Positions 5,490 to 61,812 of a DNA stretch of 64,000 nt are shown here, in pieces. Origin of the DNA: Lachnospiraceae bacterium (GTDB taxonomy: Bacteria; Bacillota; Clostridia; Lachnospirales; Lachnospiraceae); NCBI GenBank assembly GCA_022483465.1, contig JAKVNF010000004.1, forward strand, positions 172,001 through 236,000, in the 5' to 3' direction. The notes beneath the pieces are model-generated. The model was not told where the DNA came from and did no database searches. It saw only the letters and a program-made list of their open reading frames with translations. Positions within the stretch are counted from its first letter, which is position 1. Every line of letters starts with the position of its first letter. The position numbers and the translations under genes were made by a program.

Positions 5490-5607
5490 ACGTTTCCTCC
5501 TTGTGGATTTGTGGGCAGATGCCCGGATAATAGGCATCTGCGTCATCGGACTGCTATTCAAACATGGATGTAAGGCATTCCGGCCTCTTTTCCTGCTGTT
5601 TGCACGC

Positions 5608-5651: not shown

Positions 5652-5699
5652 GAAGGTTTTTGGAACTGGGATGTGCGTCAGACTTTATACTGTCAACTG

Positions 5700-34529: not shown

Positions 34530-35006
34530 TCAGGTTTCCCCCGCGCGCCGTTTCCACATGATGAGGGCGTGCTCCGTGGGGTTGGTGTAAAAGTTTTTGC
34601 GCACCCCCTCCGTCACAAAGCCGAAGCTCTCGTAGAGGGCGCGGGCCGCCGTGTTGCCCTCCCGCACTTCCAGGGTGTAGTCCCCGGGGACGAGCGTCTT
34701 CCCGGCTAAGAAGACCTCCTCCAGGAGGCGGTGGGCAATGCCGCGCCTTCGGAAGGCGGGGAGGACCGCCACGTTGGAGATCTCTCCGTCGCCTGCGATC
34801 ACCTGCAGGCCCACGGTGCCGACGATCTTCTCCCCCTCCCCGGTCTCCACCACTGCCTTGAAGTAGTGGGCGTAGGGGAGAAGGAGCGTTGCCCGGTAGC
34901 TTGCCTCCGACCAGGCCTCCGGAAAGCAGACCTTCTCCAGGGCTGCCGCCTCCGCCGCGTCCTCCCGCACCATCGGGAGGATGCGGAGCGCGTCACGTTC
35001 CGGCAT
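34530..35006 (-). CDS. rimI: Ribosomal-protein S18 alanine N-acetyltransferase-like GNAT
   Basis: 158 residues. GNAT core with EKVCFPEAWSEASYRATLL, GDGEISNVAVLPAFRRRGIA (acetyl-CoA loop) and TLEVREGNTAARALYESFGF, the RimI pattern. Its neighbourhood with tsaB, tsaE and tsaD is the usual one for rimI. Its start overlaps the tsaB stop region by 14 bases. Confidence 0.92.
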   Translation of the reverse strand: MPERDALRILPMVREDAAEAAALEKVCFPEAWSEASYRATLLLPYAHYFKAVVETGEGEKIVGTVGLQVIAGDGEISNVAVLPAFRRRGIAHRLLEEVFLAGKTLVPGDYTLEVREGNTAARALYESFGFVTEGVRKNFYTNPTEHALIMWKRRAGET

Positions 35007-45778: not shown

Positions 45779-47335
45779 TCAGGCGTGGTCCGCGTCGGTC
45801 AGATCCTCCGGGACCGCATCCTTTGTCATCTCGTCGATATAGTCGCTGATCGTCTGCACCTGGTCAGACACCTGGTAGCTGTCGTCGTCGAACAGGAACT
45901 GGTGCAGCCACTGCACGTTTTCGGTCAGCGTCCGGGGCACCACGCAGTCACCCAGGGAGTTCGAGAGGTTCGCCTGGATGCGGTAGTCCGCCTGCGGGAA
46001 GCCGTTCTGCATGGCAGAGGTGTCGGACTCCTCCACCACGGAGTAGTTTGCGATGCTGGTGACATCGGAGATCAGGTTGTTCAGGTCATAGGAGGTGTAG
46101 ATCTCGTCGAAGGCGTTGGTCGCGATCGTGGTCAGGGTGCTCACATCGGCAGCCTGGGCCTTCTTGATGACCTGATAGAGCACCTCCCGCTGGCGGGCGG
46201 CGCGCATGTAATCCCAGCCGTAGGTGTAGCGGATACGGCAGTAGGCTGTTGCCTGCAGGCCGTCGAGGGTCTGGAGGCCGGGGCTGGTCACCTCGGTGTA
46301 GTCGATGCCGAGCTCCTTTGCCATCGTGGACTGGTAGTTGTTCAGGTGGGTGATCTCATCCTCATCCACGTTGATCTCCACGCCGCCCAGGGCGTTGATC
46401 ACGTCGGTGAGGCCGCCAAAGCCGATCGTCACGAAGTCGGTGATGTTCAGATCCATGTTCATGTTGAGCATGTTGATGGCCTGCTCCGGGCCGCCCTTGG
46501 CGTAGCCGGCGTTGCACTTGTTGTAGGTGTCATCCGAGAGGTTCATCAGCGTGTCGCGGTAGACCGAGACCAGCTTCACCTCGCCGGTCGACTCGTTGAT
46601 GGAGGCGATGATGATGGTGTCGGACCGGGTCTTCTGGTCCAGCTGTCCCTCCGTGGAGTCGACGCCAAAGAAGACGATCTGGCGGTAGCCCTTCATGGCG
46701 CCGTTCTCCTCGTCCTGCTTGACCTCGTCGGAGATGTTGTCCTGCAGATCGGACTCGGACAGATCCGCCTTTCCGACCTTCTCCACCCGGGTCACCAGGT
46801 ACAGGATGCCGATGACCACAAGGAGTGCCGCGATCTCCACCACAAGGAGGACGATGCGCTTCGTTCTGCTCTTCTTTTTGCCGCCGGACGTATGCTTCTT
46901 ATTTCCGCGGGAAGACTTCTTGCCGCCCCGGTTCTGGTCCCCGTAGGGATCGTCCCCGTACTGGGTGTCGTCCTCCTCGTAGTACCCGTCGTCCTGGTAG
47001 CCGTCATCCTGGTACCCGTCGTCCGAATAGGTCACGTCCTGGTAATTGCCATCCTGATAGGTGCCGTCCTGGTACCCGTCATCCGGATAGCCGCCGTCCT
47101 GGTAGGTTCCATCCTGATCATTACCGTCCTGGTACCCGTCATCCTGGTAGCTGCCGTCCTGGTAGTTCCCATCCTGGTAACTGCCATCCTGGTAATTCCC
47201 ATCCTGGTAATTCCCGTCCTGATACCCGTCGTCCTGGTACGCCCCGTCCTGATAGCCGTCATCCGGATAGCCGTCCTGCTGCCCGCGCCGGTCCCGGCCG
47301 TATCCGTTCTGATATCTGCTGTCTCGTCCTGCCAT
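45779..47335 (-). CDS. LytR-CpsA-Psr (LCP) glycopolymer ligase with repeat-rich cytoplasmic tail
   Basis: 518 residues. Residues 21-120 are about 20 copies of a five-residue acidic unit (YQDGN-type). A Lys/Arg-rich linker (135-160) and one membrane helix (about 161-182) follow, then the extracellular LCP domain with VFFGVDSTEG, SDTIIIASINESTGEVKLVS, VYRDTLMNL, a YAKGGPEQAI block and IRYTYGWDYMRAARQREVL, including the conserved Arg/Asp that hold the pyrophosphate. LCP enzymes move lipid-linked wall polymers onto peptidoglycan. The long acidic tail is unusual and may vary in repeat number. Confidence 0.92.
   Translation of the reverse strand: MAGRDSRYQNGYGRDRRGQQDGYPDDGYQDGAYQDDGYQDGNYQDGNYQDGSYQDGNYQDGSYQDDGYQDGNDQDGTYQDGGYPDDGYQDGTYQDGNYQDVTYSDDGYQDDGYQDDGYYEEDDTQYGDDPYGDQNRGGKKSSRGNKKHTSGGKKKSRTKRIVLLVVEIAALLVVIGILYLVTRVEKVGKADLSESDLQDNISDEVKQDEENGAMKGYRQIVFFGVDSTEGQLDQKTRSDTIIIASINESTGEVKLVSVYRDTLMNLSDDTYNKCNAGYAKGGPEQAINMLNMNMDLNITDFVTIGFGGLTDVINALGGVEINVDEDEITHLNNYQSTMAKELGIDYTEVTSPGLQTLDGLQATAYCRIRYTYGWDYMRAARQREVLYQVIKKAQAADVSTLTTIATNAFDEIYTSYDLNNLISDVTSIANYSVVEESDTSAMQNGFPQADYRIQANLSNSLGDCVVPRTLTENVQWLHQFLFDDDSYQVSDQVQTISDYIDEMTKDAVPEDLTDADHA
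46976..47275 (-). repeat. 15-bp coding minisatellite in the LCP gene
   Basis: About 20 tandem, slightly diverged 15-bp units encode the Tyr-Gln-Asp-Gly-x repeats. It lies within one open frame, and every unit is a multiple of three, so slippage changes tail length without frameshift. Confidence 0.88.
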
Positions 47336-47525: not shown

Positions 47526-48950
47526 TCAGTAGGCGTTCTTGTTGATGAAGCCCTTGAAGATCGTCAGGAACAAGATGCGGATGTCCAGGCCGAAGCTCCA
47601 GTTCTCGATGTAAAAGATATCGTACTCGATGCGCTTGCGGATCGAGGTGTCCCCGCGGTAGCCGTTGATCTGGGCCCAGCCGGTGATGCCGGGCCGGACC
47701 TGGTGCTTGACCATGTACCGGGGGATCTCCTGGCGGAACTTCTCCACAAACTGGGGCCGCTCCGGTCTGGGTCCCACAAGGCTCATGCTGCCCTGCAGCA
47801 CGTTGAAGAACTGGGGCATCTCGTCGATGGAGGTCTTGCGCAGGAAACTCCCGAACTTGGTGACTCTCGAGTCTCCGCGCTTTGTCCAGCCCTTCTTCTC
47901 CTCCTCTGCGGTCTGCACCCGCATGGTCCGGAACTTGTACATCGTAAAGGGCTTGGAGTGGAGACCGATCCTCGTCTGCCGGAAGATGATGGGGCCGGGG
48001 CTGGAGAGCTTTGTCCCGATCGCCGCCACCAGCATGACCGGCGAGAAGAGCACGATGCAGAACAGGGAGCCCACGATGTCCATCAGGCGCTTCACCAGCG
48101 CGTTCCAGGTGTTGGAGAGCGGGACATAGCGGATGTTGATGACGGGCAGGCCCATCAGGTCCTCGGTGTAGGGCTTGGAGGGGAACAGGGAGTTGTAGTC
48201 CGGGATGAACTTCGTGTGCACGCCGGACTGCTCGCACTCGTCCACGATGTGCTCCAGGTAGTCGTAGTCCTGCAGGGAGAGGGTGATGGCGATCTCGTCC
48301 AGGTCGTTGTCGTTTAAGATCTGCTGGAGCATGTCCAGAGGCCCCAGCACCGCGACCCCCTTGTAGCGGGTCCCCACGGGCACCGCGTTGTCCAGAATGC
48401 CGTGGACCTCATACCCCCAGTCCGGGTTGGCCGCGATTCGGTCCAGGTAGGCCTCCGCGGCCCGGGAGTAGCCCACCAAAAGGATGTGCTTTAGGTTGTG
48501 GCCGTTTCGGCGGAAGTAGTAGAGGACCTTGCGGATCAGGTAGCGGTAGAGGATCGTGATGACCGTGTTCAGGATGTAGAACAGGATCAGGAACGATCGC
48601 GAGAAGTTGACGAAGTTGGCGTTGCGCGTACTCATCAGGAAGAAGACCACCATGACCGCCACGATGCCCACGGTGTTCGCCTTGATGATGCCGCCCACCT
48701 CCGTGCGCAGCCTGGTGGAGCGCTTGGAGGAGTAGAGATTGTATGCAGCGTAAAAAATCAGATATCCGGGTATGAGAAAATACAGAGCCGAGAAATACGA
48801 CTCTGCCGACAGTGCGGTGACACCGGGGGTGGTCTCCGCCATGGGCGATAGGAACTTGATCGCCCAGGCCGCGGTATAGCTGCCCGCCACCACGATGCCG
48901 TCCAGCACGACGTGCATTCGGTTGAAAAAGATCTGATTGTCTCTGATCAT
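47526..48950 (-). CDS. Polyprenyl-phosphate sugar-phosphate transferase (WbaP/WcaJ type)
   Basis: 474 residues. Four to five membrane helices in the first 150 residues. A Rossmann-like middle domain (HILLVGYSRAAEAYLDRIAA). The C-terminal bacterial sugar-transferase domain has KRLMDIVGSLFCIVLFSPVM (re-entrant helix), MYKFRTMRVQT, RKTSIDEMPQFFNVLQGSMS, LVGPRPERPQFV and RPGITGWAQINGYRGDT. It transfers a sugar-1-phosphate onto undecaprenyl phosphate and so should start the repeat or primer. Last gene before the terminator of the glycan operon. Confidence 0.93.
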   Translation of the reverse strand: MIRDNQIFFNRMHVVLDGIVVAGSYTAAWAIKFLSPMAETTPGVTALSAESYFSALYFLIPGYLIFYAAYNLYSSKRSTRLRTEVGGIIKANTVGIVAVMVVFFLMSTRNANFVNFSRSFLILFYILNTVITILYRYLIRKVLYYFRRNGHNLKHILLVGYSRAAEAYLDRIAANPDWGYEVHGILDNAVPVGTRYKGVAVLGPLDMLQQILNDNDLDEIAITLSLQDYDYLEHIVDECEQSGVHTKFIPDYNSLFPSKPYTEDLMGLPVINIRYVPLSNTWNALVKRLMDIVGSLFCIVLFSPVMLVAAIGTKLSSPGPIIFRQTRIGLHSKPFTMYKFRTMRVQTAEEEKKGWTKRGDSRVTKFGSFLRKTSIDEMPQFFNVLQGSMSLVGPRPERPQFVEKFRQEIPRYMVKHQVRPGITGWAQINGYRGDTSIRKRIEYDIFYIENWSFGLDIRILFLTIFKGFINKNAY

Positions 48951-48962: not shown

Positions 48963-50054
48963 TCAGTTGAAGAGTCTCTGGAAGGTGCCGCCAATCAGCT
49001 CCCCCTGGATCTTCAGATAGTTGTGGAGGTGCCGGAGGGTGAAGGGGACCTTGCCGCCCAGGTAGAGCGGGAGGATCTCCCGGAGGGCATCCTCGTTCCC
49101 CTCGATGCAGGCCTCGTCCGGAATGGAGCCCTTGCGGTAGTAGCCGATGGCATCCTGAAAGAGGGCCTGGTCCTTCGCCTCATCGATCAAAACCCTGCCC
49201 CGGGTGATCCCCCGGTCATAGGCCTCCCCCAGGTTTTTATTCCGGAAGTAGCGGCGCTTGATCAGGGTGCCGATGCCCGCGGGCAGCGCGTTCAGCCCGT
49301 ACCAGAGGGCGGGCTGGTTCTTCCAGCGAAGGTAGGCCGCATTCCCCGCGGTCATCGTCTCCTTGAAGGCGTTGTGCCGGGAACCCGTTGCCGCCGACCC
49401 CGCGTGGTAGACGATGGCCTTTGGGGCGTAGCCGTTCTGGTAGCCGTAGATCTTCGCCCGGTACCCGATGTCCACGTCCTCCAGGTAGCAGTAGTGGCGC
49501 TCGTCGAACCAGCCGATCTCGTCAAAGACCGACATCCGGTAGATCGCCGCCCCGGCGCAGGCCGCAAAGATCTGCCCCGGCCGGTCGAACTTCTCCGCCG
49601 GCTGCCCCTTGCCCCGGGCAAAGGCCCAGCCCAGGGCGCTGTAGCAGTCCCCCGCGTCGTCGATGCGGGCGGGGTCCGAGAGCATCAGCATCTTGGCCTG
49701 GACCGAGAACAGCCGCCCGCTCTGGGAGATCGCCTCCACCAGCTTCTCCACGAAGGCGGGATCCACCTTTGTGTCGTTGTTCAGAAGGATCGCATACTTG
49801 GTCTGCACCAGGTGCAGGCCGCAGTTCACCGCGTGGCAAAAGCCCGTGTTGGCGCGGATCCGGTGCAGCAGAACTTTCGGAAATTCCTTTTCCACCAGCT
49901 CCGCCGAGCCGTCCGTCGAGTGGTTGTCCACCACGATGACCCGGGGGAGGGCGGTGCCGCCAAAGAGGGACGACAGGCAGTCCCGAAGGTAGGCGATCCC
50001 GTTGTAGTTGGGAATCACCACCGTCACCTTGTTTTGCAAATCCCGCTGTGCCAT
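48963..50054 (-). CDS. GT2-family glycosyltransferase
   Basis: 363 residues. GT-A domain VTVVIPNYNGIAYLRDCLSS, VIVVDNHSTDGSAELV, metal motif ILLNNDTKVDP (NDT for DxD) and FDERHYCYLEDVDIGYRAKI catalytic region. It resembles rhamnosyltransferases WbbL/RgpB of surface glycans. The C-terminal part is a variable helical tail without membrane helices. AGGAAG-rich sequence precedes ATG 50054. Confidence 0.88.
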   Translation of the reverse strand: MAQRDLQNKVTVVIPNYNGIAYLRDCLSSLFGGTALPRVIVVDNHSTDGSAELVEKEFPKVLLHRIRANTGFCHAVNCGLHLVQTKYAILLNNDTKVDPAFVEKLVEAISQSGRLFSVQAKMLMLSDPARIDDAGDCYSALGWAFARGKGQPAEKFDRPGQIFAACAGAAIYRMSVFDEIGWFDERHYCYLEDVDIGYRAKIYGYQNGYAPKAIVYHAGSAATGSRHNAFKETMTAGNAAYLRWKNQPALWYGLNALPAGIGTLIKRRYFRNKNLGEAYDRGITRGRVLIDEAKDQALFQDAIGYYRKGSIPDEACIEGNEDALREILPLYLGGKVPFTLRHLHNYLKIQGELIGGTFQRLFN

Positions 50055-50077: not shown

Positions 50078-51382
50078 TTATGCTTCCCGCACTTCCTCCG
50101 GGTCAAACAGGACGAGATACCCCATCTCCCCCGCCGCGCGGCAGAACTCGATGCTGCGCTGGCGCAGGTCCTCCTCGGGCCGCATCACGTGGGTGTCGTA
50201 GTCCGCGTGAAACACGGTCCGGTACAGGGGCTGCAGCTCCTCCCGGATCTCCATGCAGCGGGCGTCCACGCAGGGCACGTCCTGCACGGTGTCCGCCCGG
50301 TGCATCGGGCCCGAGTCGGTCTCCCGCAGGCCCAGAAAGTAGACATTTCCCTCGGCGTCCATGGGTCCCCCCACGATGCGCCGCGTCTTTTTGTCCACGA
50401 CCTTGCCGCCGATGACGCCGATGTCATCCCGGGCCGTGAAGATGTCCGGGTGATAGGTCACCCGGTAGAAGCCCCGGTGCTTGGCATGGGTCACCGTGGC
50501 GTCGATGTGGCAGACCCGAAAGTGCTCCTGCAGAGCCCGAAGCCCCGCCTCATAGGCGTAGTCCTTGCTCTGCGGATTGCCCGCCGTGGAGCCGCTGTGG
50601 ATGCGCCAGTGGTAGAGGACCTTCGGGATGTGCCGGATGCCGGACCAGGGGGCCCGCAGCAGAAGGTCGTAGTCCTGGGCCCCGTCGTACTCGCTGCGCA
50701 GCTTGAGCGCGAGAAACAGCTCCCGCTTCATCACCAAAAGGTGACAGACGTAGTTGTTTGCCAGGAAGTAGTCCGGGTTGAAGTCCGGCTTGATGTTGGG
50801 CTCAAAGAACCTCTTTCCCTGGGCGTCGCACTTGTCCTCGTCGCAGTAGACGATCTCCGCCCGGGTGCGGCGGATCTCCTCGGTGATCTCGTACAGACAG
50901 TCCGGCGTCAGCAGGTCATCGTAGTCCAGAAGGGCCACGTAGCTGCCCGCGGCAAAGGCCGCGGCGGCGTTGGTGTTGCCGGAGATGCCGAAGTTCTTCG
51001 GGAGCCGGTGGTAGGAGATCTTCTCCGAGTGGAAAGACGCCGCAATCGCCTCCGCCTCCGGGCCCTGGCTCGCGTCCGCGATCACCAGCTCGAAGTTCTG
51101 GTAGGTCTGGGCAAGGACCGACTCCAGCATCGCGCGAAGGAGCGCCCCGTCCGGCTGCCAGCAGGGCACCAGAAAAGAGAGGAGCGGGAGGGGCGTACCC
51201 GCCTCCTCCAGCTGCTCCCACGACCGGCGCTGATTCTGCAGAGTCTCCAAGGCCGGTGCCTCGTAGGAATAGGAGGCACCGACCTTTTCGTGGAGGCGCT
51301 CCCCTGCGGCAAAGAAGGTCTGCCGCAGGCCGTTGCGCCCCGCGTAATGGATGGTTTTCGAGATATCTTCAAAGATCGACAT
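50078..51382 (-). CDS. GT2-family glycosyltransferase with degenerate second domain
   Basis: 434 residues. N-terminal helical lead; GT-A core SFLVPCWQPDGALLRAMLES, ELVIADASQG and VALLDYDDLLTPDCLYE (the DxD-type motif is DYDD), then IVYCDEDKCD and YDGAQDYDLLLRAPW. The C-terminal 110 residues (GVIGGKVVDKKTRRIVGGPM ...) look like the middle of a second GT2 domain that has lost its start and end. The stop of pgcA is 6 bases upstream of the ATG region. Specificity unknown. Confidence 0.85.
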   Translation of the reverse strand: MSIFEDISKTIHYAGRNGLRQTFFAAGERLHEKVGASYSYEAPALETLQNQRRSWEQLEEAGTPLPLLSFLVPCWQPDGALLRAMLESVLAQTYQNFELVIADASQGPEAEAIAASFHSEKISYHRLPKNFGISGNTNAAAAFAAGSYVALLDYDDLLTPDCLYEITEEIRRTRAEIVYCDEDKCDAQGKRFFEPNIKPDFNPDYFLANNYVCHLLVMKRELFLALKLRSEYDGAQDYDLLLRAPWSGIRHIPKVLYHWRIHSGSTAGNPQSKDYAYEAGLRALQEHFRVCHIDATVTHAKHRGFYRVTYHPDIFTARDDIGVIGGKVVDKKTRRIVGGPMDAEGNVYFLGLRETDSGPMHRADTVQDVPCVDARCMEIREELQPLYRTVFHADYDTHVMRPEEDLRQRSIEFCRAAGEMGYLVLFDPEEVREA

Positions 51383-51388
51383 AGACCC

Positions 51389-53116
51389 TCAGATCAGGGC
51401 TTTGACAGCCTCCGTGAGCTCGTTGCACTTTGCCGCGGCATCGTCCAGGTCCGCTCCCCGCACGCCCATGTAAAACTTGATCTTGGGCTCCGTGCCGGAG
51501 GGCCTTGCGCAGCACCATGCGTCATCGTCCAGGGCAAAGTAGAGAACATTGGACTTGGGAAGTCCGGTGGGATGCTCCGCGCCGGTTTCCAGATTCTTTG
51601 CGATACCGGTCTCGTAGTCGCGGAACTCCTCCACCTTCCAGTGGGCAAAGGACTTCGGCAGGTTCTTCCGGATCTTCTCCATGATGGCGCGGATCTTGTC
51701 GGCGCCCTCGATGCCCTTCATCGTGACCGCGACCTGGGTCTCCTTGTAGTAGCCGTACTCGCGGTAGATGTTCTGCATCTGATCCCAGAGCGTGAGGCCC
51801 TGCTTCTTGTAGAAGGCCGCGGCCTCGCAGAGCATCATGACCGCCACCGGCGCGTCCTTGTCCCGGGAGTGGGTGCCCGCAAGGCAGCCGTAGGACTCCT
51901 CCAGGCCGAACACGTAGTGATAGCTGTGCTCCTGCTCAAAGAACTTGATCTGCTCGCCGATGTACTTGAAACCGGTCAGGGTCTCCACGTAGTGGCAGCC
52001 GTACTTTTCCGCCACCCGTCTTGCCAGGTTGGTCGTCACGATCGTCGTGACAAAGGCGGGATGGTCGGGCATCGTGTGGTTCTTCGTCCGCTCCCGCAGG
52101 ATGTACTCGCCGATCAGCATGCCGGACATGTTTCCGGTGAAGCCGACGTACTCACCGGTCTTGGTGTCCTTGCAGTAGACGCCGAGCCGGTCCGCATCCG
52201 GGTCCGTGGCGAGGACGATGTCCGCGTCCTTCTCCTTTGCGAGCTTCAGGGCCAGGGTGAAGGCCTTGGGATCCTCGGGGTTCGGATATTCCAGGGTGGT
52301 GAAGTCGGGATCGGGGTCCTTCTGCTCCGGCACCACGTACACATGCCGGAAACCGAGCTCCGAGAGGACTCTCGTCACCGGGACAAGGCCCGCCCCGTGG
52401 AAGGGCGTGTAGACGATGCGGATGTCATCCGCCATCTCCCTGATCACCTCCGGATGGATGATCTGCTCTTTCAGGGCCTCCATGTAGGCGTCATCGATCT
52501 CCTTGCCGAAGTAGACGAGGAGTCCCTTTGCCAGGGCGTCCTCCTCGGACATCGTCTTCACCTCGTCGAAGGAGGCCACCGCGTTCACATCGGCGATGAT
52601 GCCGGAATCGTGGGGCGGTGTGATCTGGGCGCCGTCCTCCCAGTAGACCTTGTAGCCGTTGTACTCCGGCGGGTTGTGGGAAGCGGTGATCTCCACGCCG
52701 GCCTGGCAGTGGAAGTAGCGCAGGGCAAAGGACTCCTCCGGCACCGGGCGCAGCCGGTCGGAGAGGTAGGCCTTGATGCCGTTGGCCGCAAGGCAGAGGG
52801 CGGTCTCCCTGGCGAAGACGTCGCTGTACCTTCTGGAATCGTAGGAGATCGCGACGCCCTTTGCCGGATCCCCGTTCTTTTGAATGTAGTTGGCAAGGCC
52901 CTGGGTCGCCTTCCGGACCACGTAGAGGTTCATCCGGTTGGTGCCGGCGCCGATGACGCCGCGAAGGCCGCCGGTTCCGAAGGTCAGGTCCTTGTAGAAC
53001 CGATCCTCCACTTCCTTCTCGTCGTTGCGGATGGCAAGGAGCTCCTGCTTTGTCTTGTCGTCAAAGTAGGGATCCTCCAGCCAGTACTGAAACTGTTCCC
53101 TGACTCTCTTGTCCAT
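51389..53116 (-). CDS. pgcA: Phosphoglucomutase/phosphomannomutase
   Basis: 575 residues from ATG at 53116, with GGAGGAG about 10 bases upstream. Alpha-D-phosphohexomutase family: GTGGLRGVIGAGTNRMN, active-site phosphoserine in EITASHNPPEYNGYK, metal loop ATDPDADRLG, sugar loop GLEESYGCLAG, and C-terminal phosphate site ARPSGTEPKIKFY. It interconverts hexose 1- and 6-phosphates and would supply glucose-1-P or mannose-1-P for nucleotide sugars used by the neighbouring glycosyltransferases. Confidence 0.95.
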   Translation of the reverse strand: MDKRVREQFQYWLEDPYFDDKTKQELLAIRNDEKEVEDRFYKDLTFGTGGLRGVIGAGTNRMNLYVVRKATQGLANYIQKNGDPAKGVAISYDSRRYSDVFARETALCLAANGIKAYLSDRLRPVPEESFALRYFHCQAGVEITASHNPPEYNGYKVYWEDGAQITPPHDSGIIADVNAVASFDEVKTMSEEDALAKGLLVYFGKEIDDAYMEALKEQIIHPEVIREMADDIRIVYTPFHGAGLVPVTRVLSELGFRHVYVVPEQKDPDPDFTTLEYPNPEDPKAFTLALKLAKEKDADIVLATDPDADRLGVYCKDTKTGEYVGFTGNMSGMLIGEYILRERTKNHTMPDHPAFVTTIVTTNLARRVAEKYGCHYVETLTGFKYIGEQIKFFEQEHSYHYVFGLEESYGCLAGTHSRDKDAPVAVMMLCEAAAFYKKQGLTLWDQMQNIYREYGYYKETQVAVTMKGIEGADKIRAIMEKIRKNLPKSFAHWKVEEFRDYETGIAKNLETGAEHPTGLPKSNVLYFALDDDAWCCARPSGTEPKIKFYMGVRGADLDDAAAKCNELTEAVKALI

Positions 53117-53177
53117 TTTTGTAATACTCCTCCATTGCTGCAAGTTGACGGTTCCGGCCCCTCACACGGGCCGCAAC

Positions 53178-55211
53178 TTAATCCTGCACCTTCAGCGAGT
53201 AGTCGCTCCGGTCCAGGGTAAAGTTCGGATTGTAGTAGGGATCCCCCGCATCCAGCACCTTCTTCCACTTGGTGCGGAAGTGCTCCGCCTCGCGGTCATA
53301 GCGCGCGGCATTCTCCCCGGCAAGGTCGGACCCGCGGGAGGCACTCTCGTAGTGGTAGAGCTCGGCAAAGGGGGTGAAGACGTTCAGATATCCCTTCTCC
53401 CGGCACTTGAGGCAGAAGTCCACGTCGTTTAACGAGACCGCAAAGCTCTCGTCGAGCCCGCCGACCTCGTCGTAGATGCTGCGCTTGACCATGAGGCAGG
53501 CGCCGGTGACCGCTGAGACGTCCTGGGCATAGCAGAGGCGCCCCATATAGCCGAGGTTCTCGCGGCGCTGCCGGTAGTGGGTGTGGCCAGCGGTCCTATG
53601 GGCACCGAGGCCGATCACAATGCCGGCGTGCTGGATCGTCTTGTCCGGGTAGTAGAGCTTTGCCCCGACGCAGGCGACGTCGCTCCTCTGGGCGTACATC
53701 AGAAGCTCCTCCATCCAGTTGATGGAGATGACCTCCGTGTCGTTGTTGAGGAGCAGAATGTACTCTCCTTTTGCCTCCTTCACCGCAAAGTTGTTGACTT
53801 TGGAGTAGTTGAAGGTCTCGCCCGGGGCATATGCGTATTTTACTACACGAACCCGGTCCTTGTACGGACCCGAGGTCACCTCTTTATAATAATTTAATAC
53901 CCCCTGTTCGGTGCTCCCGTTCTCCGCGATGATGATCTCGTAGTTCTCCCAGGTGGACTTCTCGAAGATCGAGGTGAGGCACCGCTTCAGGTCCTCGGCG
54001 TGATTGTGGCTGGGGATCACGATGGAGATCAGGGGCTCCCCCTGGATCTCATAGGTGATCTTGAAGATCGTCTCGAAGGCCCTGGTGGAGGTGATCTTGA
54101 AGTTCTTGAACCCGTGGCGGCGCAGGTGGTCCGCCACCGCGCCCTTGGCCGCGTCAATGGCGTAGGTCTTGGCCGCGATGTTGCCCGCGGTGGACCCGGC
54201 GTGGCTCCTCCAGTAGTAGAGGAGTTTTGGCACATGCACGATGTGCTTTGCCTTGTCGGTGAGCCGCAGGATCATGTCGTGGTCCTGGCTGCCGTCAAAC
54301 TCCGAGCGGTAGAGCGCCTCCCCCTGGAGGAGGTTCCGGTCAAAGCAGGAGAGGTGGCAGATGTAGTTGTTGGCCCGAAGGTTGTCGATCGCGTAATCGG
54401 GCTTGAAGTGGATCGTCACGAAGTGGTTCAGGTTCGACTCCCGGAAGGTCGTCTCATCGCAGTAGAGAAAGTCCGCGTTCTTTTCGTTGATCGCCTTCAG
54501 GTACCAGTAGAGGACGCTGGGGTGCAGGTAGTCGTCGTGGTCAAAGGGGGCGATGTACTCTCCCTTTGCCATGGCGAGGCACTGGTTCGTGTTGTAGGAG
54601 ATGCCGCCGTTGTGGTCGAGCTTCTGGTAGGCGATCCGCTGCTTCAGGTTCTCGTCCCGGTTCTGGTACGCCCGGACGATCTCCCCCACGTAGGCGTGGG
54701 CATCATCGGAGCCGTCCGCAAGGCAGAGCTGCCAGTTCCCGTAGGTCTGGTTCAGGACGGAGTCCATCATCTCCTTCAGGTACTCCTTCGGGGTGTTGTA
54801 GAGGGGCACCAGGATGGAGAAGAGGATCTGCCGCGGAAACGCCGCGGCCTCCTCCTTCTGCCGCTGACGCTCTGCGGCATCGGGAAAGCTCCTTGTCCCG
54901 TAGCCCTTCTCCGCCTGCTTCTCCCGGATCTTGTACTGGATCTTCTTGGCGACGCCCTTGGCGTCGCCCTGGTTCTTCACCCGGTCCACCTGGCGCTGGA
55001 CGAAGTGGTACACGTCCCGGGCCGGCTTGGAGGCCTTCCAGATCTTGTTGTTCTTGATCCGGTCCAGCTTGAAGTTCAGGTCATCGACCGTGTCCTCGAG
55101 CTCCGCCACCCGATCCGTCAGAAAGGCCGCTCTGGCGCGCTCCTTCTCGTACTTCTCCTGCCAGTCCTCCCCGGAGGAGGGATGCGTATTGTCTGTTCTG
55201 TCCTGTTCCAT
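53178..55211 (-). CDS. Bifunctional GT2-family glycosyltransferase (two GT-A domains)
   Basis: 677 residues from ATG at 55211, with GGAAGGAG upstream. N-terminal coiled coil (about 20-60). First GT-A domain: FSILVPLYNTPKEYLKEMMD, LCLADGSDD, FDHDDYLHPSVLYWY (DHDD) and FDGSQDHDMILRLTDKAKHI. Second GT-A domain: ISIVIPSHNHAEDLKRCLTS, IIIAENGSTEQGV, ILLLNNDTEVISINWMEEL and FAVSLNDVDFCLKCREKGY. Such double GT2 proteins act in polymer elongation, each domain forming one linkage. Confidence 0.9.
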   Translation of the reverse strand: MEQDRTDNTHPSSGEDWQEKYEKERARAAFLTDRVAELEDTVDDLNFKLDRIKNNKIWKASKPARDVYHFVQRQVDRVKNQGDAKGVAKKIQYKIREKQAEKGYGTRSFPDAAERQRQKEEAAAFPRQILFSILVPLYNTPKEYLKEMMDSVLNQTYGNWQLCLADGSDDAHAYVGEIVRAYQNRDENLKQRIAYQKLDHNGGISYNTNQCLAMAKGEYIAPFDHDDYLHPSVLYWYLKAINEKNADFLYCDETTFRESNLNHFVTIHFKPDYAIDNLRANNYICHLSCFDRNLLQGEALYRSEFDGSQDHDMILRLTDKAKHIVHVPKLLYYWRSHAGSTAGNIAAKTYAIDAAKGAVADHLRRHGFKNFKITSTRAFETIFKITYEIQGEPLISIVIPSHNHAEDLKRCLTSIFEKSTWENYEIIIAENGSTEQGVLNYYKEVTSGPYKDRVRVVKYAYAPGETFNYSKVNNFAVKEAKGEYILLLNNDTEVISINWMEELLMYAQRSDVACVGAKLYYPDKTIQHAGIVIGLGAHRTAGHTHYRQRRENLGYMGRLCYAQDVSAVTGACLMVKRSIYDEVGGLDESFAVSLNDVDFCLKCREKGYLNVFTPFAELYHYESASRGSDLAGENAARYDREAEHFRTKWKKVLDAGDPYYNPNFTLDRSDYSLKVQD

Positions 55212-55254
55212 CTTACTCCTTCCCTCTGCGGCCAAGGCGGAAGCGCGCCTGCCC

Positions 55255-57345
55255 TTACCGAACCACCAGGATCACGTCCGACCAGTTCACAATGCGCTGG
55301 CGCGAGGTGCGGTCCTTTGCCAGCATGCCGATCTGGTAGCGGCCCTTGGGCAGGGCATCCCGCCGAAGCACCGCGCCAAAGCCCGTCAGCTGATCCCGGA
55401 TCTGGCCCTGGAGGTTTGCAGCGATGTCCGGCCGGTAGGCCCGCTCGGTGGCAACCTCATAGACCGGCGCCGTATCGTTCTCCGGCCGAAGCAGGAGCGT
55501 TCTCTCATAGACCGCCTGGTCCGCGTTGATCACAAAGGCATAGCCCCGGATGTAGTAGCCGGAGGTGAGGCTCTGCCCGCCGGCAGCGTCCGTCAGCGGT
55601 CCTGTGAGCCACCGGTCCACGCTGTTGGCAAACTCGACCCCGAGCTTTAACACGGGATCGGTCCACTTGTCGGGGAGCGGGTTCTTCATGAGCTCCGGCT
55701 CCGTGTAGTGGGGATTTCGAAGCTCCACATCCTCCACGGAGACCACAAACTCCCGCTCCGCCGGATCCTGCACCAGGTAGGGGTGGTAGAAGGGGTCGTC
55801 CGCAAAAAGAGACCGGTGGGCCGCAAGGAGGCTCTCGAGCTCCCTGGAGAGCCGCTCGCTCTTGACCTCGTCCTTCCGATCATCGCCCCTGGAGAGGGAC
55901 TCGTGGTGATAGAGGTACATGTTGTTGCGGACCACGTTGTAGTAGCCAAGCTCAAAGACCTTCAGGCACAGGTCGATGTCGTTGAAGGCCACCGCAAACT
56001 TGCCGGCGTCGAACCCGCCGACCTCCCAGAAGAGGTCCGCGCGCAGCATCAGGCAGGCGCCGGTGACCGCGATCACGTTCCGAACCCCCTTGTTGAAGCC
56101 GAAGTAGTGCTCCTCGTTGTTGGAGAGGTACTGGAGCTTGTGGATCGGGCCCGCATGGACGTTGATGACCCCTGCGTGCTGGATGATGTCGCTGTTGGGA
56201 TAGAGAAGCTTCATGCCCACGCACCCCACGTAGGGGAGCTTTGCCTTCTCGGAGAGGTAGGAGAGCCACTCGGGCCGCCGCACCTCGATGTCGTCGTTCA
56301 AAAACAGGAGGAGCTCGCCGTTTGCCTTTTCCGCGCCCAGGTTGCACATCGCGGAGAAGTTGAACTCCATGGGCTGGTAGATGTAGCAGGCAGAGCCCGT
56401 CTCGTTGTGGGCCGCAACCAGCGCCTCCACCTTGGCCCGGTTCTCCGGGGTGGAGCCGTTGTCCACGATGATCAGCTCATAGGGGAGGGACTCGGTGTAC
56501 TTCTCGATCGAGTGGATGCACTCGGCGAGGACCTTCGGGTTGTCCTTGCTGGGGATGATGATGCTGATGAGGCGCGTGGCAGCGCTCTCTGCGGAGTAGC
56601 GCCCCGTCAGGGAGCCGCGGATCAGCTTGGAGTCCCAGGGGTTATGCTTTCTCGTCGCGTGGTAGAGCACCTCCCGGATGTGTCCGATGGGGAAGGTGCC
56701 GCCGCTGCGGCGGGTAAAGCCTCCCTCCGCCTGGGCAAGCTTCATGCAAAGGCTCCCGTAGATCCAGGCCCGCATGCCGTCGTCCAGATCGGTCTTGGCG
56801 GCCTTGGCCTCCTCGTCCTTGTCCTCCTCGAGCTTTGCCTTGGACTCAAAGGTGTCCGCGGTGCGCAGGCCCGGGTTGATCATGAGGAGCTCGGACTTGC
56901 GGAAGGCAAAGACATGGCCGATGTAAAAAGTCGAGAGGAAGGTGTCCGGGGCCCAGTCCGACTTCAGCCAGGGTGCGCACAGTCCGCCCCGCTCGTCGAT
57001 CCGGTCCTCGTCGCCGTAGACCAGGCCGACGTCCGGATTGGCCGCAAAGTAGTCCCGAATCAGGGTCTGGGCGTAGTCCGTCAGGTACCCGTCGTCGTCC
57101 ACCGCGATGATGATGTCCGGCTTCTTTCCCCCGGAGAGCACGTAGTTGCGCAGGTGCGAGAACTTCACCTGCTCCACCGTGAACTTCTCGCCCTCGCTGT
57201 GGTCGGTCTCCTTCAGCTTCCGGTCCAGCTCCGCCTTGTGGGAGGTGTACCAGTTCGCGTAGGCGTTGTTCTTGTTCGCCAGCTCCCGCTCATACTCCTC
57301 ATCACACCTGTTCACGAAGTACTGCTTGATCTTCTGCTTCAGCAT
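55255..57345 (-). CDS. Bifunctional-looking GT2 glycosyltransferase with C-terminal beta domain
   Basis: 696 residues. The first GT-A unit is atypical: it starts directly at PDIIIAVDDDGYLTDYAQTL and VYGDEDRIDERGG, without the nucleotide-binding first strand. The second unit is complete: ISIIIPSKDNPKVLAECIHS, LIIVDNGSTPENRAKVE, LLLFLNDDIEVRRPEWL and FAVAFNDIDLCLKVFELGYY. The C-terminal 150 residues, ending RIVNWSDVILVVR, look like a beta-sandwich. The gene lies directly after the methyltransferase gene; the ATG has GAGGAGC upstream. Confidence 0.87.
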   Translation of the reverse strand: MLKQKIKQYFVNRCDEEYERELANKNNAYANWYTSHKAELDRKLKETDHSEGEKFTVEQVKFSHLRNYVLSGGKKPDIIIAVDDDGYLTDYAQTLIRDYFAANPDVGLVYGDEDRIDERGGLCAPWLKSDWAPDTFLSTFYIGHVFAFRKSELLMINPGLRTADTFESKAKLEEDKDEEAKAAKTDLDDGMRAWIYGSLCMKLAQAEGGFTRRSGGTFPIGHIREVLYHATRKHNPWDSKLIRGSLTGRYSAESAATRLISIIIPSKDNPKVLAECIHSIEKYTESLPYELIIVDNGSTPENRAKVEALVAAHNETGSACYIYQPMEFNFSAMCNLGAEKANGELLLFLNDDIEVRRPEWLSYLSEKAKLPYVGCVGMKLLYPNSDIIQHAGVINVHAGPIHKLQYLSNNEEHYFGFNKGVRNVIAVTGACLMLRADLFWEVGGFDAGKFAVAFNDIDLCLKVFELGYYNVVRNNMYLYHHESLSRGDDRKDEVKSERLSRELESLLAAHRSLFADDPFYHPYLVQDPAEREFVVSVEDVELRNPHYTEPELMKNPLPDKWTDPVLKLGVEFANSVDRWLTGPLTDAAGGQSLTSGYYIRGYAFVINADQAVYERTLLLRPENDTAPVYEVATERAYRPDIAANLQGQIRDQLTGFGAVLRRDALPKGRYQIGMLAKDRTSRQRIVNWSDVILVVR

Positions 57346-57354: not shown

Positions 57355-59517
57355 TCACTGCTTTTTGTTCTTTCGGATGGTCTCCGACATGGTGCCCGGG
57401 ATGCCCGCCATCTGGACGGAAAAGTTCACCACATCCCGGACCGACCCGTCCTCTCCCCTGCGGCCGGTCTTTTTGCGGATCTTCGCAAGGTCAAAGGAAA
57501 ACCAGGGGTCCATCGTCGCAAACAGCACGGCGCCGCCCCCGCAGGGGGTGCCATTGTGCGACACATACTTTTGAAATAGGGCGCTCCCCTCCGGCGCGTC
57601 TGCAAACTGCGCCTGCAAGAGCAGGGCGACGCAGGGGACGCTGGCGGGGTCGAGGCGAAGGGCCCGCACGTTCCGCCCTACCTCTACGGAGAAGGTGACA
57701 ACTCCCTCCTTCTCATAGAGGGCGGACGGCACGAAGGTCTCCTCCTCGCGGTAGCCGGCGCCGGTGTCGAAGTAGATCTTCACCCGCACCAGTGCCTGCT
57801 CCTTCTCCCGCTGCGCCCGGACGGCCGCCTCGTGGCGACGCCGCCCCTCCTCGCGCTCCGCCTCGGTCTGCAGCTCCGCCGGCCGGATGACTTTGCCGCC
57901 AAAGAGTGCCCCCGCCCGGGAGAGCGGAAGGCTCCCCGCGGCGATCTTTTCCTGGAAGGCATCCTCTTCTGCACAGAGGTGCTCTGCCTCCTCCTTCGTG
58001 ATCCCGACAAAGGAAAGAAGTTCTTCCTCTGAGAGGATCTCCCGGAGTTTTTCTTCTCTTGCGGGATCCTCCCGCAAAAACAGGACCAGAGACCGCCCCA
58101 GGAGCTCCTTTGCCGGGATCGGGCGGTCCACCGCCCACTCGTAGTCGATGGCAGTCCAGGTGCCTCCGGAGAGAATCAGGTTGGGGAAGGTCATGTCGCA
58201 GTCGGAGACGGGAACCTCCGGGTGGGCACCGACCTTCTCCCGGTACGCGGAAAGAAGCCCCAAAAAGCCCTCCCGGTCCCCGGCAAGGAGCTTCTCCTCC
58301 AGGACTTCATCCAGGGTTCTTCCCTCGATAAAGGAAAAGGAGACGCCGCCATCCTTCGTGCGCGCGCAGGGGGCGATCCGAAGTCCCTCCGGGTCCCCCT
58401 CATAGCGCGCCGAGAGCTTTTTCCAGGACTCCTCCATCCGAAGGACGTGGTCCCTCGCCTCCTCGCAGAGGGGATACTTGATCACATGTTTTCCGGTCCC
58501 GTCCGAGACGATCTCCGTCCGGATCCTGCAGGATCTCGCCCGCTCCCCCGAAAAGCGGCAGTAGTCAACGGGAAGCGCCGGCCCCGTCACCACCTCGAAG
58601 GAGTTGGCAAAGACGGGGTAGAGGCCGTCGGAGAGGATCCCCTGGTAGGCCTTCTTCTCGTCAAAGAGAAGGAGCCGGTCCCGATCGAAGTTCCGCACAT
58701 TCCGGGAAAGTTCCGGCGCGGCGGGCAGGCGCTTCTCCGAGTAGATCGTGTCCGCAAACTTGTAGTCCGGGTAGGGATAATAGAATGCGGCATCCGAAAA
58801 GCCTGTCCTTGCAAGGAGGGCGGCAAGTGCCGGCCTGGAAAAAGTCTGCGCCGGAGATGCCGGCACGTTCTCATAGCTCTCGATGCCGTCGAAGTAGCGG
58901 CCCGAGTGGTCCTCCCGGCAGCCCGCAAAGTACTTCATGCCAAGCCGGTTCTCGATCGCGATGACAAGGCGCCCGGTCTTTTCCTTTAAGTGCGCCCGAA
59001 GGAGCGCAAGTTCCCGCCCGTAGGGGTCCTCCCCCGGCAGGTAGCTCCCCGCGTACTCCAGGACGCCGATGAGAAAGATGTAGTCGTAGTCCCGGTCCAG
59101 GCCAGGCTCAATATCCGCAAAGTTCCCGACCCGGATCTCGATGTTGTCCCGATCCCGGTGGCGGTAGGCGTTGATCAGGGAGCGCTTCTTCGAGAGCTCC
59201 ACGCAGGTCACCTGTCTGCACCGCTTTGAGAGAAGCCCCGTGATGGCGCCGGGCCCCGCCCCGATCTCCAGGACCTTCTCCGTCCCGTCAAAGGGGAGCC
59301 AGCCCACGATGTTCTCGCGGACCGGGGAGAGGTGGTAGAGAATAGGCCAGCTCTTCTCTCTGGCAATGATCTCCTCAAACTCCTCCTCCCGGTGGTCCTT
59401 TGCGATCGCAAGGAGGGCGTCCTCCACCGCGCCGTCGCAGTAGAAGTCCTCCCCGGGATACCGGGACAGATCCAGCAAAACGCCGCCGATCCGCTCCTGT
59501 TGTCTTGCCTGCTCCAT
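57355..59517 (-). CDS. Methyltransferase plus kinase-like plus coiled-coil protein (possible glycan chain terminator)
   Basis: 720 residues in four parts. (1) SAM methyltransferase, about 45-240: motif I VLEIGAGPGAITGLLS, CVELSKKRSLIN and an IFLIGVLEYAGSYLPG region. (2) APH/protein-kinase-like fold, about 300-480: candidate Lys347 in HVIKYPL, catalytic-loop pattern CDMTFPNLIL (Asp441, Asn446) and metal Asp458 in AIDYEWA. (3) Charged helix or coiled coil, about 545-580 (LQTEAEREEGRRRHEAAVRA). (4) A beta-rich C-terminal domain. The gene is immediately downstream of wzt. This order resembles WbdD of E. coli O9a, which methylates and phosphorylates the chain end. The function is inferred. Confidence 0.72.
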   Translation of the reverse strand: MEQARQQERIGGVLLDLSRYPGEDFYCDGAVEDALLAIAKDHREEEFEEIIAREKSWPILYHLSPVRENIVGWLPFDGTEKVLEIGAGPGAITGLLSKRCRQVTCVELSKKRSLINAYRHRDRDNIEIRVGNFADIEPGLDRDYDYIFLIGVLEYAGSYLPGEDPYGRELALLRAHLKEKTGRLVIAIENRLGMKYFAGCREDHSGRYFDGIESYENVPASPAQTFSRPALAALLARTGFSDAAFYYPYPDYKFADTIYSEKRLPAAPELSRNVRNFDRDRLLLFDEKKAYQGILSDGLYPVFANSFEVVTGPALPVDYCRFSGERARSCRIRTEIVSDGTGKHVIKYPLCEEARDHVLRMEESWKKLSARYEGDPEGLRIAPCARTKDGGVSFSFIEGRTLDEVLEEKLLAGDREGFLGLLSAYREKVGAHPEVPVSDCDMTFPNLILSGGTWTAIDYEWAVDRPIPAKELLGRSLVLFLREDPAREEKLREILSEEELLSFVGITKEEAEHLCAEEDAFQEKIAAGSLPLSRAGALFGGKVIRPAELQTEAEREEGRRRHEAAVRAQREKEQALVRVKIYFDTGAGYREEETFVPSALYEKEGVVTFSVEVGRNVRALRLDPASVPCVALLLQAQFADAPEGSALFQKYVSHNGTPCGGGAVLFATMDPWFSFDLAKIRKKTGRRGEDGSVRDVVNFSVQMAGIPGTMSETIRKNKKQ

Positions 59518-59533
59518 GCTCCCTCCCTGGCGA

Positions 59534-60781
59534 TTACTCCGCGTCGGTCACCCGCACCACGGAATTCATGTCGTAGTAGCCGACGGAATTCTTGTCCGAG
59601 ACCACCGTCAGCCCCATCACGTCGTAGAGCCTGTGGTAGACCGTGAAGTTCTCCCCCTCGTATCCGGTGCAGCCGAGGGAGATCAGATACTCCCCGCCCT
59701 GCAGGTCCACCCGCTGCCGGAACGTGATCTCCTTGACCTGGCCCTTTTTGACCGGGTCCAGGAAGGCCTTTTCGAACATCGTGTTGGTGCCGGTGATCTC
59801 CACCCCGTACTTGTTCTTGATCGTAAAGGCAAAGATCGGCGCCTTCACGTCCTCGTAGAACTCCACCCGCATCCGGATGGTGCACTCGGAGCCCTTCATG
59901 ATCGTGGAGTTGCGGATGCCCTTGTCGTCGATGACATCGTAGGCAATGATCTTCGCCTTGCCGGAGCCATAGTCCAGGACCTGGTTCTCCGACTTCTCCG
60001 CGTTCTTCTTCGTGCGGTCGGTGTTCTCGTCCGCGTCGTACTGCCCCACCAGCACCTGCTTGTAGATGTCGATCATCTCCTTGGGGCTGCCCTCGCCAAG
60101 CTTGACACCCTGGTTCAGGACCATGACCCGATCGCAGTACTTGCTGATGCTCGAGAGGTCGTGGGAGACAAAGAGCACGGTCTTCCCCGCCTTCTTGAAC
60201 TCCTCGAACTTGCGGTAGCACTTGGCCTGGAAGAACACGTCGCCCACGGACAGCGCCTCGTCGACGATGAGGATCTCCGGGTCGATGTTGATCGCGACCG
60301 CAAAGGCGAGCCGCATGAACATACCGGAGCTGTAGGTCTTCACCGGCTGGTAGATGTACTCCCCGATGTCGGCGAAGTCCAGAATCGCCGGCATCTTCTC
60401 CTTGATCTCCTCCTCAGAGAAGCCGATCATCGTGCCGTTGAGGTAGATGTTGTCGATGCCGTTGTACTCCATGTTGAAGCCGGCGCCCAGCTCCAGCAGG
60501 GCGGAGATGCGGCCGTTCACGGTGACCGTGCCGCTGGTGGGCGTCAGGACGCCGGTGATGATCTTTAAGATGGTGGACTTTCCGGAGCCGTTGGTTCCGA
60601 TGATGCCCACGGTCTCTCCCTGGTAGACGGTCATGGACACGTCGTTCAGGGCGAGCTTCTCGGTGTACCGGTGCTTCTTGGAGCCAAAGGCGTCCGCCAC
60701 CCGGTCCCGGTTTTTCTTGTAGAGTTTGTACTTCTTGACCAGGTGCTCCACCTGGATTGCCGCCTGTCTTGTCTCTTCCAT
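59534..60781 (-). CDS. wzt: Polysaccharide ABC exporter ATPase with C-terminal substrate-binding-like domain (Wzt/RgpD type)
   Basis: 415 residues from ATG at 60781 (MEETRQAAIQVEHL), preceded by GGAAGAAGGG. ATPase domain: GIIGTNGSGKSTILKIITGV (Walker A), signature TYSSGMFMRLAFAVAINIDP, Walker B EILIVDEALSVGD and switch VSHDLSSISKYCD. After residue about 255 a separate beta-sandwich follows (IRMRVEFYEDVKAPIFAFTI ... YHRLYDVMGLTVV), the position of the Wzt carbohydrate-binding domain that recognises capped chain ends in O-antigen export. Teichoic-acid TagH has an unrelated tail. With wzm it forms the exporter. Confidence 0.92.
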   Translation of the reverse strand: MEETRQAAIQVEHLVKKYKLYKKNRDRVADAFGSKKHRYTEKLALNDVSMTVYQGETVGIIGTNGSGKSTILKIITGVLTPTSGTVTVNGRISALLELGAGFNMEYNGIDNIYLNGTMIGFSEEEIKEKMPAILDFADIGEYIYQPVKTYSSGMFMRLAFAVAINIDPEILIVDEALSVGDVFFQAKCYRKFEEFKKAGKTVLFVSHDLSSISKYCDRVMVLNQGVKLGEGSPKEMIDIYKQVLVGQYDADENTDRTKKNAEKSENQVLDYGSGKAKIIAYDVIDDKGIRNSTIMKGSECTIRMRVEFYEDVKAPIFAFTIKNKYGVEITGTNTMFEKAFLDPVKKGQVKEITFRQRVDLQGGEYLISLGCTGYEGENFTVYHRLYDVMGLTVVSDKNSVGYYDMNSVVRVTDAE

Positions 60782-60795
60782 ATGCCCTTCTTCCC

Positions 60796-61812
60796 TCACA
60801 TCACGTCTGCAAACTGGGGCTTCAGCTTCCGGAAGATCATGGCGCCGATGACAAACAGGAGCACCGTCACGATCCAGAAGTAGGTGGAGGAGTAGAAGTG
60901 GGTCCAGAACCACTCCCGCCCGTAGATGGAGCTGCGGTAGCCCTCCACGATGTAGGCCATCGGATTCAGCTTGAAGTAGGGGCGCAGGTTCTCATTGATG
61001 TTGCTGACGTTCCAGAGGATGGGGGTGGCCCACATGCCGACCTGCAGGAAGATCGAGACGATCTGCTGCAGATCCCGGAAGAACACCACGATGGCCGAGG
61101 TGGCATAGGACAGGCCCAGCACAAACAGGTACTCGCACAGCGTGTAGTAGATCAGCTGCAGCCAGTACACCGAGGGGAAATACCCGTAGAGGATGCTGAT
61201 GATCAGCAGGATGATGGTGAACCCGACGTGGGTGATCACCGCCGCGTTGATCTTGATCATCGGCAGGATGCTGACCTTGAAGACCACCTTCTTGACCAGG
61301 AAGTTGTACTCCATCAGGCTCGTCATGCCGCCGGTCACCGCGTCCGAGAAGAAGAACCAGGGGACGAGGCCGGCGGTGAGAAAGAGCACGTAGGGCACGT
61401 CGATGGCCCCGGTGATCTGCTGCCGGCCGGAGCGGAAGATCCGGTCAAACACCACGTAGTACATGAGCACCGTCACAACAGGCGGCACCAGGCTCCAGAC
61501 CACGCCCAGGTACGAGCCCGCGTAGCGCTTTCGAAAGTCGTTCTTAGACAGGCGCAGGATCAGCCGCCGGTTGTTCCAGAGCTCCTGGGGGAGCTGGGTC
61601 AGCCGGTTGTAGCCGAAGGTGACCAGAAGCACCACCAGCGTCAGCAGAAGGCAGGCGCAGATCTTCTTGAGCCTTGCAGTCTGGGGATCCTCCAAGGGGT
61701 TCGTGTGGGCAACCACCACCACGGCCAAAATCAGGGCCGCCGCCCAGACAATCCCCAGCACACGCCCCTTGCGCATCATTTTTGTTGCATCCGTTTTCTC
61801 TGTATTCCTCAT
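60796..61812 (-). CDS. wzm: Polysaccharide ABC exporter permease (Wzm/RgpC type)
   Basis: 338 residues. Two additional N-terminal membrane helices (about 19-35 and 51-67) precede the ABC-2 permease body: LSKNDFRKRYAGSYLGVVWS at the interfacial helix, PPVVTVLMYYVVFDRIFRSG, FFFSDAVTGGMTSLMEYNFL, LGLSYATSAIVVFFRDLQQI and the end MAYIVEGYRSSIYGREW. Exports lipid-linked polysaccharide across the cytoplasmic membrane together with Wzt. First gene of the glycan operon, downstream of an extended -10 promoter. Confidence 0.92.
   Translation of the reverse strand: MRNTEKTDATKMMRKGRVLGIVWAAALILAVVVVAHTNPLEDPQTARLKKICACLLLTLVVLLVTFGYNRLTQLPQELWNNRRLILRLSKNDFRKRYAGSYLGVVWSLVPPVVTVLMYYVVFDRIFRSGRQQITGAIDVPYVLFLTAGLVPWFFFSDAVTGGMTSLMEYNFLVKKVVFKVSILPMIKINAAVITHVGFTIILLIISILYGYFPSVYWLQLIYYTLCEYLFVLGLSYATSAIVVFFRDLQQIVSIFLQVGMWATPILWNVSNINENLRPYFKLNPMAYIVEGYRSSIYGREWFWTHFYSSTYFWIVTVLLFVIGAMIFRKLKPQFADVM

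Follow-up and report, generated by a model that had tools for sequence, protein, structure and literature searches.

We analysed a 64,000-nucleotide stretch of a Lachnospiraceae genome (assembly GCA_022483465.1, contig JAKVNF010000004.1, positions 172,001 to 236,000 of the forward strand; hereafter the window) and, within it, the open reading frame (ORF) at 57355-59517, which encodes a 720-residue methyltransferase-kinase. We think it probable that this protein is a rearranged chain terminator of the Klebsiella O7 type, serving an exported wall glycan that is attached by an LCP enzyme. The Klebsiella pneumoniae O7 terminator appears to be a better match than WbdD of Escherichia coli O9/O9a, with which the initial annotation had compared the protein. 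What we observed were its module content, kinship, conservation and gene linkage. The protein and its parts are as follows.

57355..59517, minus strand: methyltransferase-kinase, 720 aa, proposed chain terminator (domain matches, conservation)
58582..59517, minus strand: methyltransferase domain, residues 1-312 (Methyltransf_11, E 8e-7)
57883..58581, minus strand: kinase-like domain, residues 313-545, with K347, D441, N446 and D458 (conservation, PDB profile matches)
57787..57873, minus strand: charged insertion, residues 549-577, not a coiled coil (alignment of 76 proteins, crude coil scan)
57403..57789, minus strand: conserved C-terminal domain, residues 577-705, where the O7 terminator has an Ig-like carbohydrate-binding module (conservation)

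The O7 terminator, ORF6-O7 of K. pneumoniae O7, was described in 2024 as a methyltransferase, a kinase unlike that of WbdD, an Ig-like domain, a coiled coil and two GT2 glycosyltransferase (GT) modules; it adds a phosphate at position 3 of the terminal rhamnose and then methylates that phosphate, its D441A variant gave no conversion in vitro, and its authors call it distinct from WbdD (PMC11231755). The same description gives Y28, Y66, G91, G93, E112 and Y158 as the residues for S-adenosylmethionine (SAM), puts the kinase at ~223 residues, and names alphaproteobacteria, gammaproteobacteria and cyanobacteria, with O7-like clusters in Gluconacetobacter and Methanoculleus. Compared with this description, the window protein is alike in having a methyltransferase, then a non-WbdD kinase with a catalytic Asp, then a further domain (Ig-like in O7), and the two systems have in common an ATP-binding cassette (ABC) exporter, a GT2-GT2 polymerase module and a rhamnose context. 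They differ in that the window protein stops after its third domain, with the coil and the GT2 modules on a glycosyltransferase (GTb) two genes downstream, and in that an LCP ligase stands in the window operon in place of lipopolysaccharide ligation. A coil in the same polypeptide, an O7 feature, is absent from the window protein, and for this reason we call it an O7-type variant rather than a plain member.

The sequence link to O7 came from plasmids. The window protein, compared with 72,556 plasmid records, gave two relatives, in Pseudomonas asturiensis and Citrobacter braakii, and in both cases genes for an ABC permease and an ATPase stand immediately upstream. The P. asturiensis protein (WP_024686765.1, locus L145) has 1457 residues and carries Y28, Y66, G91, G93, E112 and Y158 at exactly the ORF6-O7 numbers. 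Their counterparts in the window protein have the same letters (Y26, Y61, G86, G88, E107 and Y155); across 76 aligned relatives, G86, G88 and Y155 never vary and Y26 and Y61 rarely do, and the consensus at position 107 is D. The P. asturiensis methyltransferase is 39% identical to that of the window over 267 residues (E 9e-38), its kinase keeps the D, N and D motifs, and the protein matches our methyltransferase, kinase and, weakly (E 8e-4), C-terminal profiles in that order. In a four-protein search, the family kinase profile matched it with E 2.4e-12 and the Citrobacter protein with E 2e-4. Its last part is a GTb-like module (37% identical over 566 residues, E 5e-120), and its five best matches in the window's genome were GTb, GTa, GTc, the methyltransferase and GTd. 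The modules and the upstream ABC genes are thus alike in the two systems; unlike the window's, the P. asturiensis protein is a single polypeptide, encoded on a plasmid of a Gram-negative, with a coil-like stretch (residues 721-751) before its GT modules that is weak, since 29 of 200 shuffles of the region also pass the scan. On the C. braakii plasmid, typed as conjugative, the region L146 4207-16760 is an O-antigen-like cluster of rml genes, exporter, methyltransferase-kinase and glycosyltransferases; the kinase there has E at the last catalytic Asp.

The methyltransferase domain contains the SAM motif I that the initial annotation had read from the sequence (VLEIGAGPGAITGLLS, residues 82-97). 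The kinase residues proposed there, K347, D441, N446 and D458, proved exact. We compared 45 kinase domains, 26 from the 76 aligned fused proteins and 19 from split or GT-fused ones, and R326, T334, K347, G399, D441, N446, D458, E460 and W461 are invariant in all 45; for the K, D, N, D set this is more than chance. A profile of the 45 domains gave 39 distinct matches in the PDB (E up to 10), and kinases or a phosphotransferase account for 35 of them; the best has E 0.0023, and many are near-copy rows (JAK1, PAK1). The best alignment puts K347 at the region of the ATP-binding lysine, and D441 and N446 on the catalytic Asp and its Asn. Pfam Pkinase matched 2 of the 45 domains (best E 4.8e-6) and Pfam APH one of 19 sequences (E 0.024), while a Pfam search of the window's own kinase domain returned nothing. 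Residues 313-545 are thus likely to be a kinase. A non-kinase reading of the region was considered and is unsupported, but the evidence against it is modest, the PDB matches having E 0.0023 or worse.

The C-terminal domain keeps R-x-D-P, G, F and D-P positions in at least 90% of 39 sequences. The window's copy has no Pfam match, and its profile (residues ~578-700) gave no match in the PDB at the threshold used for the kinase profile; from its sequence it would form a beta domain. Residues 549-577, just before it, are a long insertion (29-36 residues) found in 4 of the 76 aligned proteins (the window's, L032, L033 and L034), an alignment that does not contain the closest relative, L031.

The methyltransferase-kinase was matched in 79 of 150 sampled Lachnospiraceae genomes, each of a different genus, and in 11 of 299 sampled genomes of the phylum, the window's own being included in both counts. 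A scan of genome contigs gave at least 544 relatives, the best 80 of which, mostly from Lachnospiraceae, were kept as named loci. Among the 30 best-scoring loci, methyltransferase and kinase share one ORF in 20, occupy two adjacent ORFs in nine (the methyltransferase then being a separate gene of ~300 aa) and are cut by a contig end in one. In a methyltransferase tree, made by a quick method and with some long branches, the fused, coil-free type of the window falls into one clade (20 of 47 rows, SH-aLRT 100); L125, a fused protein with a coil, lies outside it.

The window's operon runs on the minus strand in the order Wzm, Wzt, methyltransferase-kinase, GTa, GTb, phosphohexomutase, GTc, GTd, WcaJ-type transferase and LCP ligase:

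60796..61812, minus strand: Wzm-type ABC-2 permease, 338 aa, first operon gene (Pfam ABC2_membrane, E 2e-17)
59534..60787, minus strand: Wzt-type ATPase with C-terminal carbohydrate-binding-type domain, 417 aa (ABC_tran, E 3e-23; Wzt_C)
59567..59974, minus strand: Wzt_C domain, Wzt residues 272-407 (PF14524, E 4e-42)
55255..57345, minus strand: GTa, glycosyltransferase with one GT2 domain (family match)
53178..55235, minus strand: GTb, glycosyltransferase with two GT2 domains (family match)
55026..55160, minus strand: predicted short coiled coil near the GTb N-terminus, GTb residues 26-70 (crude coil scan)
51389..53143, minus strand: phosphohexomutase-type enzyme (family match)
50078..51382, minus strand: GTc, GT2 glycosyltransferase (family match)
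48963..50054, minus strand: GTd, GT2 glycosyltransferase (family match)
47526..48950, minus strand: WcaJ-type undecaprenyl-phosphate sugar-phosphate transferase, for initiation (TIGR03023, 512 bits, cut-off 411)
45779..47335, minus strand: LCP-family glycopolymer ligase, for wall attachment by family (PF03816, E 2e-32)

The ORFs for Wzm, Wzt and the methyltransferase-kinase adjoin one another, and all three, predicted earlier as adjacent genes, were confirmed; the Wzt ORF also has an alternative, longer GTG start. The likening of the Wzt tail to carbohydrate-binding Wzt-C domains held as well, by the Wzt_C match listed above. Wzt residues 261-417 align with the Wzt tails of P. asturiensis (E 6e-18), E. 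coli O9 (9e-12) and Citrobacter (1e-9), and the best PDB match of the whole protein is the ABC transporter chain 8dku_A (residues 11-387, E 2e-76), which we take to be the Aquifex O-antigen Wzt. The window's genome (4.3 Mb) contains one match to the methyltransferase-kinase and one to Wzt_C. Elsewhere in the window, two TsaD-family ORFs lie close together (32511-33539 and 34993-35772, minus strand); one is a full TsaD and the other, shorter, is probably TsaB, and both are ordinary tRNA-modification genes.

The pairing of exporter and terminator was examined in the 149 other family genomes, with matches of at least 120 bits defining a strong Wzt_C class. There, 78 genomes have a methyltransferase-kinase match and 76 a strong Wzt_C, all 76 falling among the 78. 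The two lie within 6 kb on one contig in 73 of the 76 genomes, and within 1 kb in 65. The exceptions among the 78 are G076, without a Wzt_C match, and G096, which was matched by the C-terminal domain only. Weaker Wzt_C sites (below 120 bits) number 36 in 30 of the 150 family genomes; one of the 36 is near a methyltransferase-kinase match, and this class may use other caps. At G096:C15:31127-32558, a weak-class Wzt_C stands beside an ORF that matches only the terminator's C-terminal domain and is perhaps a different terminator sharing that domain. A terminator ORF was called in 77 of the 80 named loci (all except L035, L055 and L065), 73 of them with enough upstream sequence: Wzt lies at most four ORFs upstream in 70 of the 73 and Wzm, within the same distance, in 64, and an ortholog of GTa or GTb lies at most three ORFs downstream in 74 of the 77.

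The initial annotation had noted a charged helix at about residues 545-580. As a coiled coil this did not hold: a crude heptad scan, with shuffled sequences as the control, was negative there, and the insertion occurs in just the 4 of 76 proteins named above. We therefore reject a coiled-coil ruler at residues 545-580. The scan matched somewhere in 18 of the 76 aligned methyltransferase-kinases, chiefly at ~347-393 and 475-559, which we read as kinase helices; a coil lying wholly after residue 545 (own numbering) was found in one. Single matches are weak, since many shuffled whole sequences also pass (17/200 for the window protein, 49/200 for WbdD and 57/200 for GTb).

The coil near the N-terminus of GTb is more consistent. 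It is present in the first 130 residues of 56 of 66 GTb orthologs as against 3 of 66 shuffled sequences, counts that are not independent because the orthologs are related; 41 of the 56 coils are 31 residues long. For the window's GTb, 4 of 200 shuffles of the first 130 residues pass. The same test elsewhere gave 15 of 72 for Wzt, 6 of 71 for GTa and 1 of 77 for the terminator. In the window's GTb the coil is followed by a W-K-x-S-K-P-x-R motif, and a W-basic-P-x-R motif occurs within the first 150 residues of 56 of the 66 orthologs; a slightly different pattern of this kind was found in 61 of 238 GT-like ORFs and in none of 864 others in the loci, so it marks glycosyltransferases generally. 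In the 19 split or GT-fused kinase ORFs, a coil follows the kinase in 10 and is absent in 9; GTb-like sequence shares the ORF in 7, and in L113, L120 and L123 the kinase ORF also spans nearly all of GTb. Proteins of the O7 format have this coil between terminator and polymerase; in the window's clade it seems to sit on GTb instead.

The proposed pathway is read from protein families and from the characterised enzymes. The WcaJ-type enzyme would initiate and GTa-GTd would elongate the chain. As with the O7 enzyme, the kinase domain would phosphorylate the non-reducing end of the lipid-linked polysaccharide and the methyltransferase domain would then methylate the phosphate; with its end phosphorylated and the cap methylated, the chain could not grow. 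The adjacent exporter would recognise the cap by its Wzt_C tail, as in the O9a model (PMC3482155), Wzm/Wzt would export the finished chain, and the LCP enzyme would join it to the wall. It is a good inference that a modification at the chain end would set both the length and the export of the glycan, and that an LCP enzyme would attach it. A more specific version, for which we give less than even odds and which we offer tentatively, is that in one large clade of Lachnospiraceae the methyl-phosphate cap ending the wall polysaccharides is made by an O7-type terminator whose own ruler has been lost, the GTb coil of near-constant length serving as the ruler, with Wzm/Wzt export and LCP attachment. 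A ruler on GTb would mean that chain length is set by the docking of two proteins and not by one rod-shaped enzyme.

The glycan is probably rhamnose-rich. Of the 61 loci with at least 9 kb of upstream sequence, 53 carry at least two of rmlA, rmlB and rmlC ahead of the terminator. In the window's genome rmlBDAC is on another contig, outside the operon, and rhamnose is for this reason only inferred. An IS transposase-like ORF, recognised by eye, lies just upstream of Wzm (62359-63849, minus strand) and may mark the displacement of the rml genes. A compact rmlB-rmlD-rmlA-rmlC set is found at G000:C3 (L144 7848-11352), its rmlB, rmlA and rmlC 55-63% identical to those of the relative L077; L144 holds a second transposase-like ORF, again by eye, at 5510-7222.

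WbdD itself was compared using the gene of E. coli HS O9, identified as WbdD by its PDB match. Part of the initial reading stands: a fused methyltransferase and kinase next to Wzm/Wzt with a Wzt_C tail, and an LCP gene in the operon. The order permease-ATPase-terminator-polymerase is also common to the window and E. coli HS O9. Kinship with WbdD is not supported, and its His pair and coil are absent. BLASTP of the window protein against WbdD gave nothing significant. In hhalign only part of the methyltransferase aligned (residues 77-185, probability 63%, E 7e-5), and the kinases aligned at noise level (probability 0.4%, E 0.15); that weak alignment pairs WbdD D351 with D441 and N356 with N446. 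H132 and H133, essential for the WbdD methyltransferase (PMC3482155), align with E154 and Y155, which are invariant in the 76 relatives. By the crude scan, WbdD has coils inside residues 487-595 and the window protein has no coil. When 100 family genomes were searched with WbdD as the query, only four gave matches, all short and marginal, and the window's genome gave no match. That a Gram-positive acquired a true WbdD ortholog, with its own coiled-coil ruler and capping a mannan-like chain, is therefore very improbable despite the common gene order, the same methyltransferase-before-kinase arrangement and the partial profile alignment; sequence, active-site residues, coil and family search all speak against true kinship, which we reject. 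A common kinase fold at a larger distance is possible.

A different possibility is that the cap is methylation of a sugar hydroxyl only, as with WsaE of Geobacillus or in E. coli O8, the kinase-like domain being non-catalytic or, for example, glycan-binding. WsaE of Geobacillus stearothermophilus NRS 2004/3a is a Gram-positive precedent, likened here by description: a methyltransferase implicated in rhamnan termination, fused to two rhamnosyltransferase domains beside an upstream wzm/wzt, for a glycan attached to S-layer protein, in a description that mentions no kinase (PMC2943079). The window protein has a kinase-like domain and no GT domain, and so is not a WsaE-type fusion. In three of seven relatives outside the family (L132, L137 and L140), no kinase was detected beside the methyltransferase, and a kinase is thus not obligatory; neither Gram-negative relative keeps K347, and Citrobacter has E at D458. 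Against this stand the K, D, N, D set, invariant in all 45 family relatives, and the O7 enzyme, which phosphorylates and whose D441A variant loses activity (PMC11231755); we regard methylation alone as unlikely. As for the three relatives, L132 (1260 aa ORF) and L137 (345 aa ORF) have Wzt in the locus and are possibly methyl-only terminators like WsaE, and L140 has a short methyltransferase match and no Wzt in its locus. The enzyme might instead decorate residues along the chain with phosphate and methyl. Gene linkage cannot tell termination from side-chain decoration, and in the S-layer glycan of Paenibacillus alvei it is the adaptor, at a distance from the chain end, that bears a phosphate-linked group (PMC2943079). 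The tight pairing with one Wzt_C class and the fusion of modules to the polymerase in relatives fit a terminator better, however, and the O7 enzyme acts on terminal rhamnose (PMC11231755), which makes decoration an improbable reading to us.

Several observations weigh against the O7-type terminator that we favour, beside the kinase-free relatives, the distant rml genes and the limit of gene linkage already given. The link to ORF6-O7 runs through the P. asturiensis protein, recognised by its residue numbers and not by direct sequence comparison, and the catalytic Asp of that protein is D443, not D441. In one alignment, P. asturiensis has H at K347 and N at G399; Citrobacter has R at K347 and E at D458. 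The PDB entries of WbdD are also absent from the 39 matches of the kinase profile.

The papers cited describe chain termination by an exporter-read cap for the O antigens of Gram-negatives and propose it for a single S-layer glycan of a Gram-positive. Among the papers listed, no title or abstract opening placed such a terminator in Lachnospiraceae; a 2019 survey of terminators and carbohydrate-binding modules in Glycobiology may list Firmicutes cases. The kind of system is thus already known, and what is new is that Gram-positives have a methyltransferase-kinase module of O7 type whose coil and polymerase are on a separate protein. The shift of the coil from terminator to polymerase is a natural rearrangement that makes the molecular-ruler idea testable. 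If the O7-type reading is right, many gut Firmicutes would bear wall chains capped with methyl-phosphate, and the cap could have a bearing on glycan length, on phage adsorption and on immune recognition.

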